Below the pieces are notes generated by a model, which saw only the letters and a program-made list of their open reading frames with translations, was not told the origin of the DNA and made no database searches. A stretch of 64,000 bases of DNA from positions 1-64,000 of the forward strand of contig JAEOTH010000171.1 in NCBI GenBank assembly GCA_016839915.1, given 5' to 3'. Source of the DNA: Promethearchaeota archaeon (GTDB taxonomy: Archaea; Asgardarchaeota; Lokiarchaeia; Sigyniarchaeales; SOKP01). Positions 43,305 through 51,075 of the stretch are shown one piece after another. The position numbers and the translations under genes were made by a program. How positions within the stretch are numbered: position 1 is the first letter of the stretch; each line of letters starts with the position of its first letter.

Positions 43305-44156
43305 TTATTCTTCTTCTTTTTCCACTTCATTATCATACATTTGTTCACTATTTAAAACTTCTTCACTTTCATCTTCATCTTTACCTGTTAAAGCTTCTTC
43401 TATTTCAACCTGTGGTTCACTACTTGATATTTCTTCAATTCCTAATTGGGTAACCATTGCACGTTTCAATTCAGTTTTATCTTTAGGCAATCCAAACATA
43501 TCCGCATACTTATCTGTGGTTGTTAATTCATGAGATCTTCCTTTTTTTATAGCATTTATAAATCCGTTATCTATAAGGTATTTTACATGTTCATATGCAC
43601 CAGTTCCTCTCAATTTAACAACCATTGATTTTAAAATTGGTTGTTTCAAAGCTATGAGAGTGAGTGTTCTTAGATATCTTTCTGCTATTGCCCCTCCTTT
43701 AGCAAATTTAGATACTTGTTCTGTATACTCTGGTCTAATCTGCATTTGGTATCTGTCTCCTATTTGCGCAATGATAAGAGCAGTGGATCTTTCCAAGTAA
43801 TCAAACGCTACTTCATTTACTAATTCTTCCACTTCTTTTTTAGGGAATTCTAATTTAGTTGAAAATTCTTCTATAGTTAAGGGTCTTCCAGCAGCGTACA
43901 AGGATGCTTCAATTAGATTTCGATGATATTCTCTTGTTTGCTTTTTTAAGGATTGTTCATCAAGGATTGTGGGTTCTAAGGGTTCATCAGCTAATTTGAT
44001 TTGAGATTCTTCATTAAAAGACTGGTTTTCCTCAAATTTTTCTACTATTGGAATTTCTAATTCTTGATCTAATTCTTCGGGTAAGTCAATTTCTTCTGTA
44101 TCCTCTAATTCTCCTTCTAATTTTTCATTAAGTTCATTCTCAGGATTTTCTTCCAA
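43305..44156 (-). CDS. scpB: Segregation and condensation protein B, with acidic N-terminal extension
   Basis: LIEASLYAAGRPLTIEEF, ERYLRTLTLIALKQPILKS, tandem wHTH pattern. Confidence 0.9.
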   Translation of the reverse strand: MEENPENELNEKLEGELEDTEEIDLPEELDQELEIPIVEKFEENQSFNEESQIKLADEPLEPTILDEQSLKKQTREYHRNLIEASLYAAGRPLTIEEFSTKLEFPKKEVEELVNEVAFDYLERSTALIIAQIGDRYQMQIRPEYTEQVSKFAKGGAIAERYLRTLTLIALKQPILKSMVVKLRGTGAYEHVKYLIDNGFINAIKKGRSHELTTTDKYADMFGLPKDKTELKRAMVTQLGIEEISSSEPQVEIEEALTGKDEDESEEVLNSEQMYDNEVEKEEE

Positions 44157-44197: not shown

Positions 44198-45199
44198 TTA
44201 TTTAATATTAACGCTTATATCTTGAAAATCGTCATCTTGAGATAGAGTTAATTTATTCCCGGTAGATAGGAACATTAATGCGAGAAACATACGAATAAAT
44301 GAAAATTTCCGCCCTATTCCGCTTTTTTCTTCATTTTTAATAATATTTGTCAAATTATAAAAACTAGATTCCTTATTATTTAAATTAATCGTAGCTTTTA
44401 TTCGATTGTACCATGATTCATGCAATTCTTCTACTGTTTGTTCTCTTCCACTTATATGTTTTAGAAGTTCTTTAGGAAGTTGTGCTTTCGATTTCATTTG
44501 GATCCTTTGTTGTTTAACTTCTTCTTTTCTCATCCGTCTTCTTCTTAATTTTTCTTTATTTTGCATAACTTCTATAATAGCAGATCGCATGGCGTCAAAT
44601 AGTTCTTCCTTTGTTGCTATTTGCATTTTAGGTTGAATTGGTTGAGGTAATGCTTTAGGAATTGCTCTCCCATGTCTTTTTCTGAATCTCTCCAATTCTT
44701 CTCTTTTTTGAATTTGTTCTTCTTCTCTAATTATGCTTGAGATTTTATAATGATGCAAAGTTGCAGAAGTTTTAAGCGCAATTCCAGAGATCTTATAATT
44801 TATCAAATTTTCGTGAAGCATCTTTTCAAAAAATTCATCAACTAATTTTGATAAATCATAAAAAGCAATCTCTGATTCTTTTGCTATCTCAGTATCTAAT
44901 AAACTGGAAAATGGTGGTTTTTGCCAAAATTTTAGTTCAGTTTTTTCTTTTCTTAATAATGCAAGATCTTCCTCATCATCAAATCCAGCAATTAATTCTT
45001 CTTCCATTTCTTCAATTTCTTGAGCTCTATTTTCAAATTCAGGATGTAACACAATTTGGCGAAGTAAATCAATTATATCTTTTTTCTTTGACTTAGTTGG
45101 TATTTTAATATTATTCTTCGATGCAAACTCTCTTAATTCTTTTACAGTCCATTCGTCAAATTTGTATTCTTCTTTAGGACTTTGTTCATTTTTTGAAAT
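44198..45199 (-). CDS. scpA: Segregation and condensation protein A, probable ATT start at 45199
   Basis: Kleisin-like Glu-rich protein between smc and scpB. Track GTG start (45052) is internal: in-frame upstream ISKNEQSPKEEYKFDEWTVKELREFASKNNIKIPTKSKKKDIIDLLRQIV is protein-like (SAP-like); GGTGAT 5 nt before ATT. Confidence 0.8.
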   Translation of the reverse strand: MSKNEQSPKEEYKFDEWTVKELREFASKNNIKIPTKSKKKDIIDLLRQIVLHPEFENRAQEIEEMEEELIAGFDDEEDLALLRKEKTELKFWQKPPFSSLLDTEIAKESEIAFYDLSKLVDEFFEKMLHENLINYKISGIALKTSATLHHYKISSIIREEEQIQKREELERFRKRHGRAIPKALPQPIQPKMQIATKEELFDAMRSAIIEVMQNKEKLRRRRMRKEEVKQQRIQMKSKAQLPKELLKHISGREQTVEELHESWYNRIKATINLNNKESSFYNLTNIIKNEEKSGIGRKFSFIRMFLALMFLSTGNKLTLSQDDDFQDISVNIK

Positions 45200-45226
45200 T
45201 CTTAATCACCATTTTAATTATTGATA

Positions 45227-48200
45227 TTATTCTGTGATAGCCGGTTCGATATCTTCAAGTTCAAGAAGTCTTTTAGCTTCTTCTTCTAAATCAACACTAA
45301 AAATATCTGTAATTCCGCTTTGCTGCATTGATACCCCATATATTCTATCTGAGTTAACTATATTCTCTTCTCTATGACTTATAACCATAAATTGCGCTTG
45401 CGAAGCAAATTCCTTAATAACCATAGAAACTCTATGTACATTGGGGCCATCTAATGCAGCATCAATTTCATCCATTATATAAAATGGAGCAGGGTAAAAT
45501 TCTTGAACTGCAAAAATAAAAGATAGTGCCACTAATGTTTTCTCTCCTCCACTTAATATTTCTAAAGAACTAATCTTTTTACCTCTTGGTCTTGCTTCAA
45601 TACTAACACCTCCCTCAAAAGGTTTATCTGGACGATCCAAGATCATTTTAGCTGAACCTCCAGGGGATAATTTCTGAAATATACGTGAAAATTCACGATT
45701 TATCTCATGGTAAGCCTTCATGAATGTCCGTGTTTTCTCCAGTTCAATTTTATCAATAGCATCTAAAATTGATTTTCTCTCTCTTTGAATTGTTTGTCTT
45801 CTCATATCTATCTCATCAAATCTTTCTTTAACTGCATCAAATTGTTCAATGGCTTTTAAGTTCACTGGTTCAAGAATTTTCTTCTTTTTAGTTGATTCTA
45901 TTATGTCTGATTGCAATTCTGCTTCTATCAAATCATCCGTTACAGTAGGTAATGAGCCGTATTCCTTAGATCGTTGGAATAAAGTTTCAATTTGGTCAAT
46001 ACACATGATCTTTTTTGATTCAAAATTATTTATTTTAGAGTTTTCCATAGATAGGTCTGATTTTAGATCAGTTATAATTTTCTGATATTGTTTTTGTTTT
46101 TTCCATGATTCATCCTTATCTTGAATAAAAACGTCAATCTCTTTTTGTTTCTCATTTTTCTTTTGATTTTGATTTTCTAAATCTTCTTTAAAAATTACTA
46201 GTTCTTTTATTATTGATTCATTTTGTTTTTCAGTTTCTTTTATGTCTTGCCCTAATCCAACAATTTTTTGTTCTCTCTCTTTATTCTTGTTTAATTCATT
46301 TAATTTTCCTTGAGATCTTTGTAAATCTTTATTCAATTTATTCAAGTTTTTTTGAGCTTTTTTTTGGGATTCTAGCTCTTTAGCTTTATCATCTCTTAAA
46401 GAATTTATCTCCAGCTGCTTTTGGTCTACAATTTTTTGAATTTCTTCAACTTGTGAATTTAATCCTTCAATATCGCTTTGACAAGTATCAATGTTATTTT
46501 TTGCTTCAATATTTTCTTTTTTAATATCTTCGATAGAATTGATGATCCTCATTACATTTTGAAGTGCTCTTAGCCTATCCATTGTGTCTTCAAGTGTTTT
46601 ATTTTCGTTATCTATTTGTTTACGTATAGTTTCATTAATTTCCCAGAATTTTTCCTTTTGAAGAACTAGATCATCAATATTTTTCTGTAATGCATTTTGT
46701 TCAGCTTGAATATTATCTATGTTTTCCTCTGTGTTTACAATAAGATTTTTCTTTTCTTCAATAAGATTTTTCAATTTTTCTACGTTATCATCTATTTCTA
46801 TAATATTATCAAATAAATTTTGAATACCATGTAATTCTTGCAATTTTTCTCTCAGATTTTCTAATTCTTTTTGTTTTTGATCAATATCATCTTGTATTTT
46901 AGAAATTTTATCCCAGAATGTATCCTTAAGGTCTTTAAACTTATTTACTTCACTGTCCAAGTTATCAACTTCTAATTGTCTGTTTTTAATAGTCTGCTCT
47001 CTTTCACTTATTTCTTCTTCTGCTTTTTTAATTCTTTCTTTTAATTCATTATTTCTTCTATCAATTTCTTCAAGTCTTTTAGTATAGGTTGATAGATTTT
47101 CAGTAAAATGTTTTTCTTGAATATTGTACTCAGTTAATTGTTTCTCAATTTCGTTAAAATCATCTGATTGAGATTTAATATTTTCTGAGATCTCTTCCAA
47201 TTGCTTATATAATTCTTGACTTTTTGACATAGTTAATTTTCTTAAAGAGAGGTATACATTTTCAAGTATTTCCATCAAATCTTGAACAAAATTATCAAAT
47301 GTCATTGTTGAAGACTGTACTTCAACATCCGCCGATTCTTTTACTTTGTCTATTAATTGACTAATTGTATCATCGGCATTATCCGTAAACAATCGTAAAG
47401 TTTGCATAATAGAACCTAGTGTTTCTGTCATTTCGGAAGGTTTTTCTGTATCACCACCAATATCCTCAACGGTTTTCATAATATCAATTATATCTAAAAT
47501 GAACTTTTTAAAATCATCGGCTGAGGATTCAATTGCTTCAGCATTCGATTGTTGTATATTACTTTTAATGGATTCAACTGAGATATTAATATTTTGAGTT
47601 AGCATATTTAAAATTTGAAGAATTCCTGTTATATCTTTTGTATTTTTATCATACTCCTCTTCAGAAGACTCAATTTTTTTGATTAGATTTTCTTTTTCTT
47701 GCGAAAGATCATCCAAACGTCTATGAACGTTTTCTTTCTTAGTTTTTGATTTTTCTAATTCACTTTGTGTATTTGTAAGATTTTTTTTTATAGAATTAAC
47801 TTGTAAATTTAAATTATTTTTCTCTCTATCTAATTTTGATAATTCTTTTGTAAGGATTTTTAATTCTGTATTGATATTATCTATCTTTGCGTTATTATCA
47901 TTAATTTCAGATTCAAAGGAATATTTCTTCATTTTCAATAATTCTAAGTCTTGTTCGTTTTTCCTATAAATTGAATTTTCCTGCTTTAATTTTACTTTTA
48001 ATTGGTTTAAATCTTTGTTAATATTCTCATTATCTTTCAATAATTCTTTAACAGCTTTTTCAGCGTCTCTACCTTTACTTAAATCAGCAATTTTTTTTTC
48101 AATAAAGATTTTCTTTTCATTTAGTTCTTGAATATTTTCTTGATTCATTTTAATTTCTGTATTAAATGAAGATAATGAAGCTTGAAAATCTACTAACTTA

Positions 48201-49678
48201 GAATTTAATTGGTTTTTTTCTACTTGAATATTACTTATATTATTTTCTAGATCTTTTTGATTTTGATTTTCTTTTGATATTTTAACATTAAGATCATTAA
48301 TTCGTTTTCTTATTTCCGATTCTGTCTTTTTAGTTGTTTCAATGGCTTCATCAATACTTTCAGCATCTTTTTTCAATTTTTGTAGTTCAGACTCTAATTT
48401 TTCTTTCTTTTCTTCATTCTTTTTTATATTTCCTCTCAGCATTTTAATTTGAGCGTTATTAGATGAAACATTTTGCTGAATATTGGAAATTTCTGCTTTA
48501 GAAAGAGAATTTTCATCCTCTGCTTTTTTTATTTGGATATCTAACTCAGATTGTTTTTGTTGTCTTCTTTCAATTTCTTTCTTAGCATCTTCAATGTATT
48601 TTTCATATTCTAAAATTTCATTTGATACACTTTTTATTAATGAATCAAAAGTTTGGTCCTCTTCGAGTTTCATTTGTTTATTTTCTAAAGTTTCAATTTC
48701 ATTAACTAATTTTTCGATTGATTTTTTAGCTAGATTCAATGTTGTTTGACTTGAAGAAATTTGGGTTTTTACTTGAGTAATATTTTCTGTTATTTCTTCT
48801 CTTTCTTTTTCTTTTTCTGTTATCGTTTTCTGAATGTTGTCCATGACAAGTGATTCTTGTTTTAAAACATCTTCTTGTCGGTTTATTTTTTCATGCAATT
48901 CTTCAATAATTTTTTGAGAATTTTCAATTTTTCTTTCTAATTCATCTTCTTCTTGTCGTAGTTTGGAAATTTTTAGAGCTACCAACTGAGAATTTAAAAA
49001 ATTTATTTGGTCATCTAGTTCTTTCCAAGCTAAAGCATCATTTTTCTCTTTTTCAACCTTTTTCAATTGCGCTGATACTTCTTTAAAGATTGCTTCAAAT
49101 TGTCCTAAATCTCTTTCAGCTTTTTCTAATTCTTTTAGTGTAGCATCTTTCATTTCATCATATTTCTGAAGTCCAATTAATTCCTCTATAAATTTTCTTC
49201 TATCTTCAGCATTCATATGAGTTAATTCAACAATTTTTCCTTGAAGAACAAATTGATTACTTCCATCTGGATCAATGTTTGCAGCAGCTAAAGCATTAAG
49301 TATTTGTTGACGTGTAGTCTTACTGCCATTCATTTTATATCCTCCTCCTCCACCCCTCTTGATAGAACGTGTGATTTCAAAAGTATCTGTCCCTCCAGGA
49401 AAAACATTTTCAGAATTATCAAAGTATAATGTTACTGAGGCTCTTTGTGAAGGATTTTTCCCTCTTGACCCAGCAAAGATCAGATCCTCCAAGCTTTTTG
49501 CTCTCATTGTTTTTTTACTTAACCTACCTAACGCGAAACATAATGCATCAATTATATTAGATTTACCAGCACCATTTGGTCCAACTATACATGTGAAACC
49601 ACTTGAGAGTCTAATGGTTACTGTACGTTCTCCAAATGATTTAAAACCACTCATTGAAATTTTTTTAATATGAGTCAC
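45227..49678 (-). CDS. smc: SMC ATPase with atypical hinge region
   Basis: GPNGAGKSNIIDAL; LSGGEKTLVAL; MDEIDAALD; 1483 aa; no recognisable GRATFLPL/Gly-rich hinge in the middle of the coiled coil. Confidence 0.93.
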   Translation of the reverse strand: MTHIKKISMSGFKSFGERTVTIRLSSGFTCIVGPNGAGKSNIIDALCFALGRLSKKTMRAKSLEDLIFAGSRGKNPSQRASVTLYFDNSENVFPGGTDTFEITRSIKRGGGGGYKMNGSKTTRQQILNALAAANIDPDGSNQFVLQGKIVELTHMNAEDRRKFIEELIGLQKYDEMKDATLKELEKAERDLGQFEAIFKEVSAQLKKVEKEKNDALAWKELDDQINFLNSQLVALKISKLRQEEDELERKIENSQKIIEELHEKINRQEDVLKQESLVMDNIQKTITEKEKEREEITENITQVKTQISSSQTTLNLAKKSIEKLVNEIETLENKQMKLEEDQTFDSLIKSVSNEILEYEKYIEDAKKEIERRQQKQSELDIQIKKAEDENSLSKAEISNIQQNVSSNNAQIKMLRGNIKKNEEKKEKLESELQKLKKDAESIDEAIETTKKTESEIRKRINDLNVKISKENQNQKDLENNISNIQVEKNQLNSKLVDFQASLSSFNTEIKMNQENIQELNEKKIFIEKKIADLSKGRDAEKAVKELLKDNENINKDLNQLKVKLKQENSIYRKNEQDLELLKMKKYSFESEINDNNAKIDNINTELKILTKELSKLDREKNNLNLQVNSIKKNLTNTQSELEKSKTKKENVHRRLDDLSQEKENLIKKIESSEEEYDKNTKDITGILQILNMLTQNINISVESIKSNIQQSNAEAIESSADDFKKFILDIIDIMKTVEDIGGDTEKPSEMTETLGSIMQTLRLFTDNADDTISQLIDKVKESADVEVQSSTMTFDNFVQDLMEILENVYLSLRKLTMSKSQELYKQLEEISENIKSQSDDFNEIEKQLTEYNIQEKHFTENLSTYTKRLEEIDRRNNELKERIKKAEEEISEREQTIKNRQLEVDNLDSEVNKFKDLKDTFWDKISKIQDDIDQKQKELENLREKLQELHGIQNLFDNIIEIDDNVEKLKNLIEEKKNLIVNTEENIDNIQAEQNALQKNIDDLVLQKEKFWEINETIRKQIDNENKTLEDTMDRLRALQNVMRIINSIEDIKKENIEAKNNIDTCQSDIEGLNSQVEEIQKIVDQKQLEINSLRDDKAKELESQKKAQKNLNKLNKDLQRSQGKLNELNKNKEREQKIVGLGQDIKETEKQNESIIKELVIFKEDLENQNQKKNEKQKEIDVFIQDKDESWKKQKQYQKIITDLKSDLSMENSKINNFESKKIMCIDQIETLFQRSKEYGSLPTVTDDLIEAELQSDIIESTKKKKILEPVNLKAIEQFDAVKERFDEIDMRRQTIQRERKSILDAIDKIELEKTRTFMKAYHEINREFSRIFQKLSPGGSAKMILDRPDKPFEGGVSIEARPRGKKISSLEILSGGEKTLVALSFIFAVQEFYPAPFYIMDEIDAALDGPNVHRVSMVIKEFASQAQFMVISHREENIVNSDRIYGVSMQQSGITDIFSVDLEEEAKRLLELEDIEPAITE

Positions 49679-49854: not shown

Positions 49855-51075
49855 TTATTGGTTAAAAATAGTATCAATTATAATCTTTAATTGTTTTGGA
49901 TTTATAAGTGTAAAGAAAAAATCATATTTTACATTATTAAATCTTTCATAAGTATTTGCTTTACCCTTAGATTTTTTTGAGGGTTTTAAAACTCCAATAT
50001 TTAACAATTCTCCAATTAGACTCTGAAACTCATTATAATTTTTTGTATATTCTAAAGATTCACAAGATAAATCATATAATTCAATTAATTCATTAAATGA
50101 GATGTAGTAATTCATTTTACTTATAAAAAAATTCGAAAGATTATCTAAGAATATAACAATTAATATATCCTCTTCTGAAAGATAATTTATTATACTAAAT
50201 TCATCAGAGATTTGAAATGTATCAAATTCATTCTGACAAACCTCTAATAACTCAAAATTGTATGAGGTTTTATTGGCTCTTAATATTGGATATATATCTC
50301 GAAGGATTTCAATTCCTTTTCCAGGGACAGGTACGTATTGGTCACAAATTAAGTCTGTTATATAACCAATTAAATCTTTATCAATTTCATGCGAAAAACT
50401 TAAAAGAGCTCTTTGTTTCAGAATAGAGTATAGCTCGTGGTATGTGAAAAAATTTAATTTATGTTTAAAATCAAATTCAGAAAGTAAATCCATTGTTCCA
50501 GGTTGTAAGAATTTATTTACTGTAGAAATTAATGTAATATTTGTTTCTTTACTAAATTGTAGGAATTTATGAAAAATTTCAGGTTCTAAATATTCGATAT
50601 TGTTAAAGATAAAAAACAGCGGAGAATCAATTTTATTGCAAATAAATTTAAACGTATTCCATAAATGAGTAATGTTTGAATCTAAAATTGTTCGATAATC
50701 AAATTTTAAATTGTAAAAACTTATTAAATCATTAATTAAAGAAAATATTAATTCTTCAAGCTTCTTTTCCCTACAATCTAAAGTAACTTTATTAATTTTA
50801 TTAATATCTTGATTTTGAATTAAAAGATCGTTTAATACTTTGTTTACTATTACTTTTTTCCCAATCCCATTAATTCCATGATATAAAATATTAAGACTAA
50901 ACTCATCAGAAATGGAATCATTTAAAATTGAAAATAAAGAATGTTCTTCTTTTTTTCTATATAATAAACATGGTGGGATATAAGTTGGATCAAAGAGAGC
51001 TTTTGGTCCTATATAATTTTTATTTAGATTGGATTTTATCATTTTTTTTTCCTTTTTTAAAGTGATTTTAGACAT
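49855..51075 (-). CDS. Orc1/Cdc6-like AAA+ protein with degenerate nucleotide-binding motifs
   Basis: ALFDPTYIPPCLLYRKKEEHSLFSIL entry motif; HGINGIGKKVIVNKV at Walker A; FFIFNNIEYL at Walker B; C-terminal wHTH-like. Confidence 0.65.
   Translation of the reverse strand: MSKITLKKEKKMIKSNLNKNYIGPKALFDPTYIPPCLLYRKKEEHSLFSILNDSISDEFSLNILYHGINGIGKKVIVNKVLNDLLIQNQDINKINKVTLDCREKKLEELIFSLINDLISFYNLKFDYRTILDSNITHLWNTFKFICNKIDSPLFFIFNNIEYLEPEIFHKFLQFSKETNITLISTVNKFLQPGTMDLLSEFDFKHKLNFFTYHELYSILKQRALLSFSHEIDKDLIGYITDLICDQYVPVPGKGIEILRDIYPILRANKTSYNFELLEVCQNEFDTFQISDEFSIINYLSEEDILIVIFLDNLSNFFISKMNYYISFNELIELYDLSCESLEYTKNYNEFQSLIGELLNIGVLKPSKKSKGKANTYERFNNVKYDFFFTLINPKQLKIIIDTIFNQ

Follow-up and report, generated by a model that had tools for sequence, protein, structure and literature searches.

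An Asgard archaeal SMC protein with a duplicated all-helical apex in place of the hinge, encoded in an smc-scpA-scpB operon

An SMC protein encoded together with ScpA and ScpB in a Lokiarchaeia-type Asgard archaeon has lost its hinge and carries a duplicated all-helical apex in its place. The gene lies in the window, the 64,000-nucleotide stretch of DNA analyzed here, and its product is best understood as the motor subunit of an ScpAB-type SMC complex. In SMC complexes, the hinge is considered essential and a defining feature that forms the dimer interface, contacts DNA, and has been proposed to act as a DNA gate. An archaeal lineage near the ancestry of eukaryotes that exchanged the hinge for helices but kept heads, kleisin, and kite offers a natural test of which functions depend on a hinge.

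Hinge loss as such is not unprecedented, since hinge-less SMCs without CXXC were reported in 2025 from marine Actinomycetes (Sussfeld et al. 2025, PMC12153180). These share with the window SMC the heads and the absence of both hinge and CXXC hook; however, they are bacterial, and the accessible part of that report describes neither a conserved duplicated apex module nor a linkage to ScpAB. As far as the searched literature shows, what is new is that a conserved domain replaces the hinge and is duplicated, that the SMC is partnered by ScpAB and occurs in an Asgard host, and that the kleisin has changed along with it. No paper describing a hinge-less Asgard SMC was found in that literature, which did not include recent preprints on SMC evolution.

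SMC heads and the missing hinge

The smc reading frame (Table 1) starts with GTG and encodes 1,483 amino acids. Its heads are canonical, as originally predicted, with a Pfam SMC_N match at an E value of 3.7e-39 and an NCBIfam SMC_prok_B score of 604 bits, above the cut-off of 567 bits. Like canonical SMC-ScpAB systems, the protein has a Walker A motif in the N-terminal head, signature and Walker B motifs in the C-terminal head, long antiparallel coiled-coil arms (residue period, 3.46 to 3.50; arm pLDDT, ~95), and adjacent genes for kleisin (ScpA) and kite (ScpB). The predicted kleisin partnership is thus borne out by the operon, complex formation itself being inferred. The window SMC departs from the canonical type in lacking the alpha/beta hinge domain, in having a duplicated helical hairpin as its apex, and in being accompanied by a ScpA with an N-terminal putative DNA-binding extension. 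Its chain also exceeds that of the hinge-SMCs in its order by about 290 residues.

Table 1. Positions of the operon, its neighbor, and the apex-carrying proteins (window coordinates unless a locus is given)
Feature	Position	Strand	Basis or remark
smc (hinge-less SMC, 1,483 aa)	45227..49678	minus	SMC_N and SMC_prok_B matches; no hinge
N-terminal half-head, Walker A GPNGAGKSN	49184..49678	minus	Pfam, alignment
C-terminal half-head, LSGGEK signature and Walker B (MDEIDAALD)	45230..45901	minus	Alignment
Apex repeat R1 (residues 683-742), one long helix	47453..47632	minus	Duplication, AlphaFold helix, conservation peak, hendecad period 3.64
Apex loop (residues 743-753), variable, acidic	47420..47452	minus	AlphaFold loop 742-748; alignment variable there
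Apex repeat R2 (residues 754-822), second long helix	47213..47419	minus	Duplication, AlphaFold, period, conserved positions
scpA (kleisin)	44198..45199	minus	333 aa if start is ATT 45199; mechanical ORF starts at GTG 45052, 284 aa
SAP/HeH-like (Ish1) putative DNA-binding domain, ScpA N terminus	45056..45160	minus	PF10281, 28.3 bits (cut-off, 26.6); conserved in relatives
Shine-Dalgarno sequence GGTGAT, 5 nt before scpA ATT start	45205..45210	minus
scpB	43305..44156	minus	PF04079, E 6.7e-32
Orc1/Cdc6-like protein, degenerate ATPase motifs	49855..51075	minus	PDB 2qby_A (Cdc6 homologue), E 6.9e-5; synteny, motifs
Head-less double-apex proteins	L122:3915-6692, L123:3704-6478, L124:1086-3860, L125:8000-11122

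No match to SMC_hinge (PF06470) at an E value of ≤1 was obtained anywhere in the 1,483-aa chain or in 19 diverse homologues, the 20 proteins, all from the order, being aligned and then scanned singly; the domain was found in 17 of the 18 other Asgard SMCs used for comparison. A hinge hidden elsewhere in the chain was ruled out by a profile-profile scan of five overlapping segments covering residues 200 to 1250, in which the hinge profile reached hhalign probabilities of only 0.0 to 0.4%. Since a group of SMCs with degenerate hinges, used as the positive control, gave 99.5% against at most 0.4% in the window SMC, the absence is not a problem of sensitivity. The lack of a hinge motif at the center of the chain, the starting point of the original prediction, therefore held in Pfam, in hhalign, and in structural models devoid of strands.

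A zinc hook (CXXC) was also excluded, as the translation contains no cysteine in residues 660 to 850. Rad50/SbcC and the archaeal ASRP/coalescin proteins (PMC9389158) are likewise SMC-superfamily ATPases with a non-hinge apex, but they use a CXXC zinc hook, whereas the window SMC has no apex cysteine and has kleisin and kite partners. Membership among ASRP/coalescin proteins is not met (ASRP model, 157.8 bits against a cut-off of 300 bits). MukB and MksB resemble the window SMC in being SMC-like, kleisin-partnered, and divergent at the apex. MukB still has a hinge domain according to the portion of the source available (PMC8523169), and no MukB-family model was among the profile matches of the window SMC.

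The duplicated apex module

The apex had been predicted to span residues 683 to 819 (positions 47225 to 47635, which correspond to residues 682 to 818). Its central position stood, but the end was set slightly short, since the conserved module reaches to about residue 822 to 840, with a loop at about 742 to 753. The suspected likeness of two helical units proved to be a true internal duplication. Within residues 683 to 822 the units align without gaps at an offset of 71, the best self-match pairing residues 686-735 with 757-806. The z score of this match is 8.1 when compared with full shuffles and 7.1 when the shuffles keep the heptad pattern (no shuffle out of 20,000 reached it), and a comparison of unit with unit in hhalign gave a P value of 1.1e-12 over 56 columns at 23% identity.

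Conservation along the chain forms separate peaks at the heads and at the apex. Values of ~0.63 to 0.76 (residues 681-740) and ~0.65 to 0.73 (761-840) compare with mostly 0.41 to 0.64 in the adjoining arms. The strongest apex positions occur in both units: L690/L761, N696/N767, S719/S790, F723/F794, D729/D800, and I733/I804. From arms to apex, the residue period changes from heptads to hendecads, i.e., 11-residue repeats (3.64 to 3.72), strong hydrophobic residues rise from 0.26 to 0.38, charged residues fall from 0.41 to 0.24 and K+R from ~0.19 to 0.08, and the hydrophobic arc widens from ~80 to 120-160 degrees. Because basic residues are few, the apex itself is unlikely, judged by its composition, to bind DNA.

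Two AlphaFold2 monomer runs (residues 590-920 with 41 sequences and 660-850 with 29 sequences) gave two long antiparallel helices with a loop near residues 742 to 748 and no strands, in agreement with the predicted all-helical apex. Confidence was lowest at the tip (pLDDT, 53 to 77 in the longer model and ~60 to 86 in the shorter one), pTM values were 0.49 and 0.46, and the alignment was shallow. A Foldseek search of the PDB with the apex model returned no significant relative, the top matches being chemoreceptor hairpins (E value, 0.02; TM score, 0.41); by sequence, no significant relative was found in the PDB either, the best match being a designed coiled coil (E value, 0.005).

The module also occurs outside SMC proteins. 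In the Harpocratesius family (G042, G046, G049, and G050), proteins of 925 to 1,041 aa without SMC heads carry two tandem apex modules followed by another domain and a tail that is Lys-rich and histone H1-like. The first module is matched at E values of ~1e-21 to 1e-23 and the second more weakly. These are the only non-SMC carriers, and they hold exactly two hairpins in tandem. Its presence in a head-less carrier shows the apex module to be an independent unit. Zinc-ribbon-like and JAB-like proteins are encoded next to the head-less protein at two of the loci.

How the SMC arms may be joined

We lean, with little more than even confidence, toward the view that the SMC chains pair by homodimerization of their apices through a helical interface that replaces the hinge. 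Dimerization itself is inferred, the basis being the character of the sequence and the two monomer models. Two chains would join at their apices, where two hairpins, each pseudo-two-fold symmetric, would pack into a four-helix bundle, and the SMC-kleisin ring would be closed at its top by helices and not by an alpha/beta hinge. DNA-binding modules appended to the ScpA N terminus would make up in part for the DNA contact once offered by the hinge, and the mode of action of heads and ScpAB would be that of other SMC-ScpAB complexes, with ATP-driven DNA loop formation and segregation.

A hydrophobic arc as wide as that of the apex is expected where helices pack against several partners at once and is too wide for a two-stranded coil. 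Furthermore, the tandem hairpins of the head-less proteins could fold as a pseudo-dimer, which fits a four-helix functional unit. We also counted in favor of an apex dimer that the closest, though nonsignificant, fold match is the cytoplasmic hairpin of chemoreceptors (e.g., PDB 3g6b), a long antiparallel helical hairpin that itself dimerizes as a four-helix bundle; given its scores, this is an architectural analogy and not homology. A precedent for a non-hinge dimer module serving in an SMC is provided by the Rad50 zinc hook, which, in the part of the paper that was accessible (PMC6969161), is reported to be exchangeable for the SMC hinge and vice versa. On the other hand, the low confidence at the apex and the shallow alignment do not exclude a flexible tip, a heteromeric interface, or another packing. 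As a small, expressible domain, the apex lends itself to direct tests or to transfer into a laboratory SMC.

The apex might instead be a docking site for another protein, such as an adaptor or a chromatin or membrane factor, with homodimerization weak or absent. The head-less protein, with two apex modules, its further domain, and its Lys-rich tail, could bind SMC apices, and the conserved polar residues N696/N767, D729/D800, and S719/S790 recur in both halves. However, this protein is confined to the Harpocratesius family; a search for a stand-alone apex protein in the window's family, where the apex is equally conserved, returned only the SMCs themselves and weak matches to the other domain, and the large hydrophobic arc suggests burial inside a bundle. 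We therefore consider docking unlikely. Just as improbable in our view is that the apices do not interact at all, the chains being joined only by ATP-engaged heads and ScpA/ScpB. The simple hairpin of low tip confidence modeled by AlphaFold would agree with an apex that is a mere turn of a long coiled coil, and the accessible part of the report on marine bacteria (PMC12153180) describes SMCs that lack a hinge and have no known apex module, but a plain turn is not expected to be duplicated, hydrophobic, poor in charge, and better conserved than the long coils flanking it.

A heterodimer with a hinge-bearing SMC has very little left to support it. Both SMC types are encoded in some relatives, but pairing between a hinge and a hinge-less apex would not be expected, and no strong hinge was detected in any of the 19 genomes of the window's genus, in which the only hinge match belongs to a distant SMC5/6-like protein and no ScpAB-type hinge-SMC was found. 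This genus-wide absence nearly excludes the heterodimer. In the window genome, the SMC5/6-like protein (C211) has the sole hinge (33.6 bits), and the only ScpB is that of the operon itself; a second canonical SMC partnering ScpAB, which would have overturned the original prediction, was thus looked for and not found. Finally, an assembly artefact or mis-called gene, conceivable because the contamination of the metagenome bin is estimated at 6.9%, is refuted by full-length orthologues of ~1,480 aa in many relatives, dozens of independent assemblies, long contigs included, carrying them uninterrupted and at near-equal length.

Kleisin, neighboring genes, and distribution

As first called, the window ScpA was only weakly recognized. 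It matches the ScpA of a hinge-SMC locus (L052) at a phmmer E value of 1e-13, and the latter matches PF02616 at 3.8e-10; ScpA homologues in two further loci (L168 and L163) match PF02616 directly, above the cut-off. An in-frame upstream extension without ATG, GTG, or TTG restores the length of the relatives and adds the SAP/HeH-like domain. At the aligned start, ATT or ATA is present in 24 of 33 alignable relatives, nearly all behind a Shine-Dalgarno sequence of the GGTG(A) type, and ATG in 5, all without such a sequence. The true start is probably the conserved AUU codon, as far as can be judged from this comparison, and smc and scpA would then be 27 bp apart.

Elsewhere, the N-terminal extension of ScpA is a helix-hairpin-helix (L174; E value, 2.9e-13), zinc-finger-like (L029; E value, 0.02), or Lys-rich as in histone H1. 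No N-terminal additions were seen in ScpAs beside normal hinge-SMCs; in the loci compared, they occur only with the hinge-less SMC. From this we infer that DNA contact moved from the hinge to the kleisin, but the support is a correlation only, and DNA binding is putative.

Directly upstream of smc, an Orc1/Cdc6-like gene is conserved in the window's family. In its product, Walker A ends in GKK (or GKN/GKQ) and Walker B lacks the DE; with these degenerate motifs the protein is probably a pseudo-ATPase. Genuine Orc1-type proteins, whose motifs are intact, are encoded elsewhere in the window genome. The Orc1/Cdc6-like protein might recruit the SMC complex to DNA.

The apex profile matched in 67 of the 228 Asgard genomes searched, all but one in a single order and annotated as Lokiarchaeota/Lokiarchaeia, Harpocratesius, or Sigynarchaeum. 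The remaining match lies on a short contig (L129/L177, G105) that was binned with Hodarchaeota and carries the hinge-less SMC operon, through misbinning or transfer. Matches in three genomes (G005, G018, and G026; E values, 5e-6 to 8e-4) were rejected as ORFs that, judged by sequence, are cysteinyl-tRNA-synthetase-like, which illustrates that weak E values for helical sequence can be false. No apex homologues were found in viral contigs.

In a tree of the head domains, the hinge-less SMCs form one group (95/100), whose neighbors are SMCs from two further families in the class (84/96). These sister-family SMCs have only a degenerate hinge, scoring 29 to 47 bits against 80 to 136 bits for normal hinges. 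Tree and weak hinges together suggest, by inference, that the hinge may have decayed first and been replaced second. Some genomes of the order also retain a paralogue from a separate hinge-SMC group, accompanied by a more divergent ScpB of its own, and in some related genera both coexist with the hinge-less SMC. Taken as a whole, the reading of the protein as the only detected ScpAB-type SMC of its genus, dimerizing via a new duplicated hairpin, with the DNA role of the hinge moved to the kleisin, and arisen by hinge decay and then replacement in one Asgard order, remains tentative and somewhat less secure than apex pairing alone.

Several further observations concern SMC genes of the relatives. 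In the sister group (L050, L054, and L056), the second half of the degenerate hinge is eroded, a possible evolutionary intermediate. The SMC5/6-like protein (L071, identical to G000:C211; also L058, L059, and L061) has a Walker A motif GPNWSGK[ST] and conserved neighbors of ~416 and 216 aa, possibly an unrecognized kleisin and kite; no Pfam family was matched by the neighbors that were scanned. In four genomes (G003, G005, G007, and G018; L064, L065, L069, and L070), a separate copy of the last 48 to 75 smc codons stays near scpA, the full-length gene lying ~9 to 17 kb away in the first three and on another contig in G018. No integrase was recognized among the scanned genes between fragment and full-length smc. 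In G007, the two copies are 79% identical in DNA, and at the protein level the fragment shares 88% identity with the window SMC. One genome (G053) encodes a 1,260-aa SMC (L057:3236-7015) without a hinge match but with a CKTC motif near its center, which suggests a putative independent replacement by a zinc hook.
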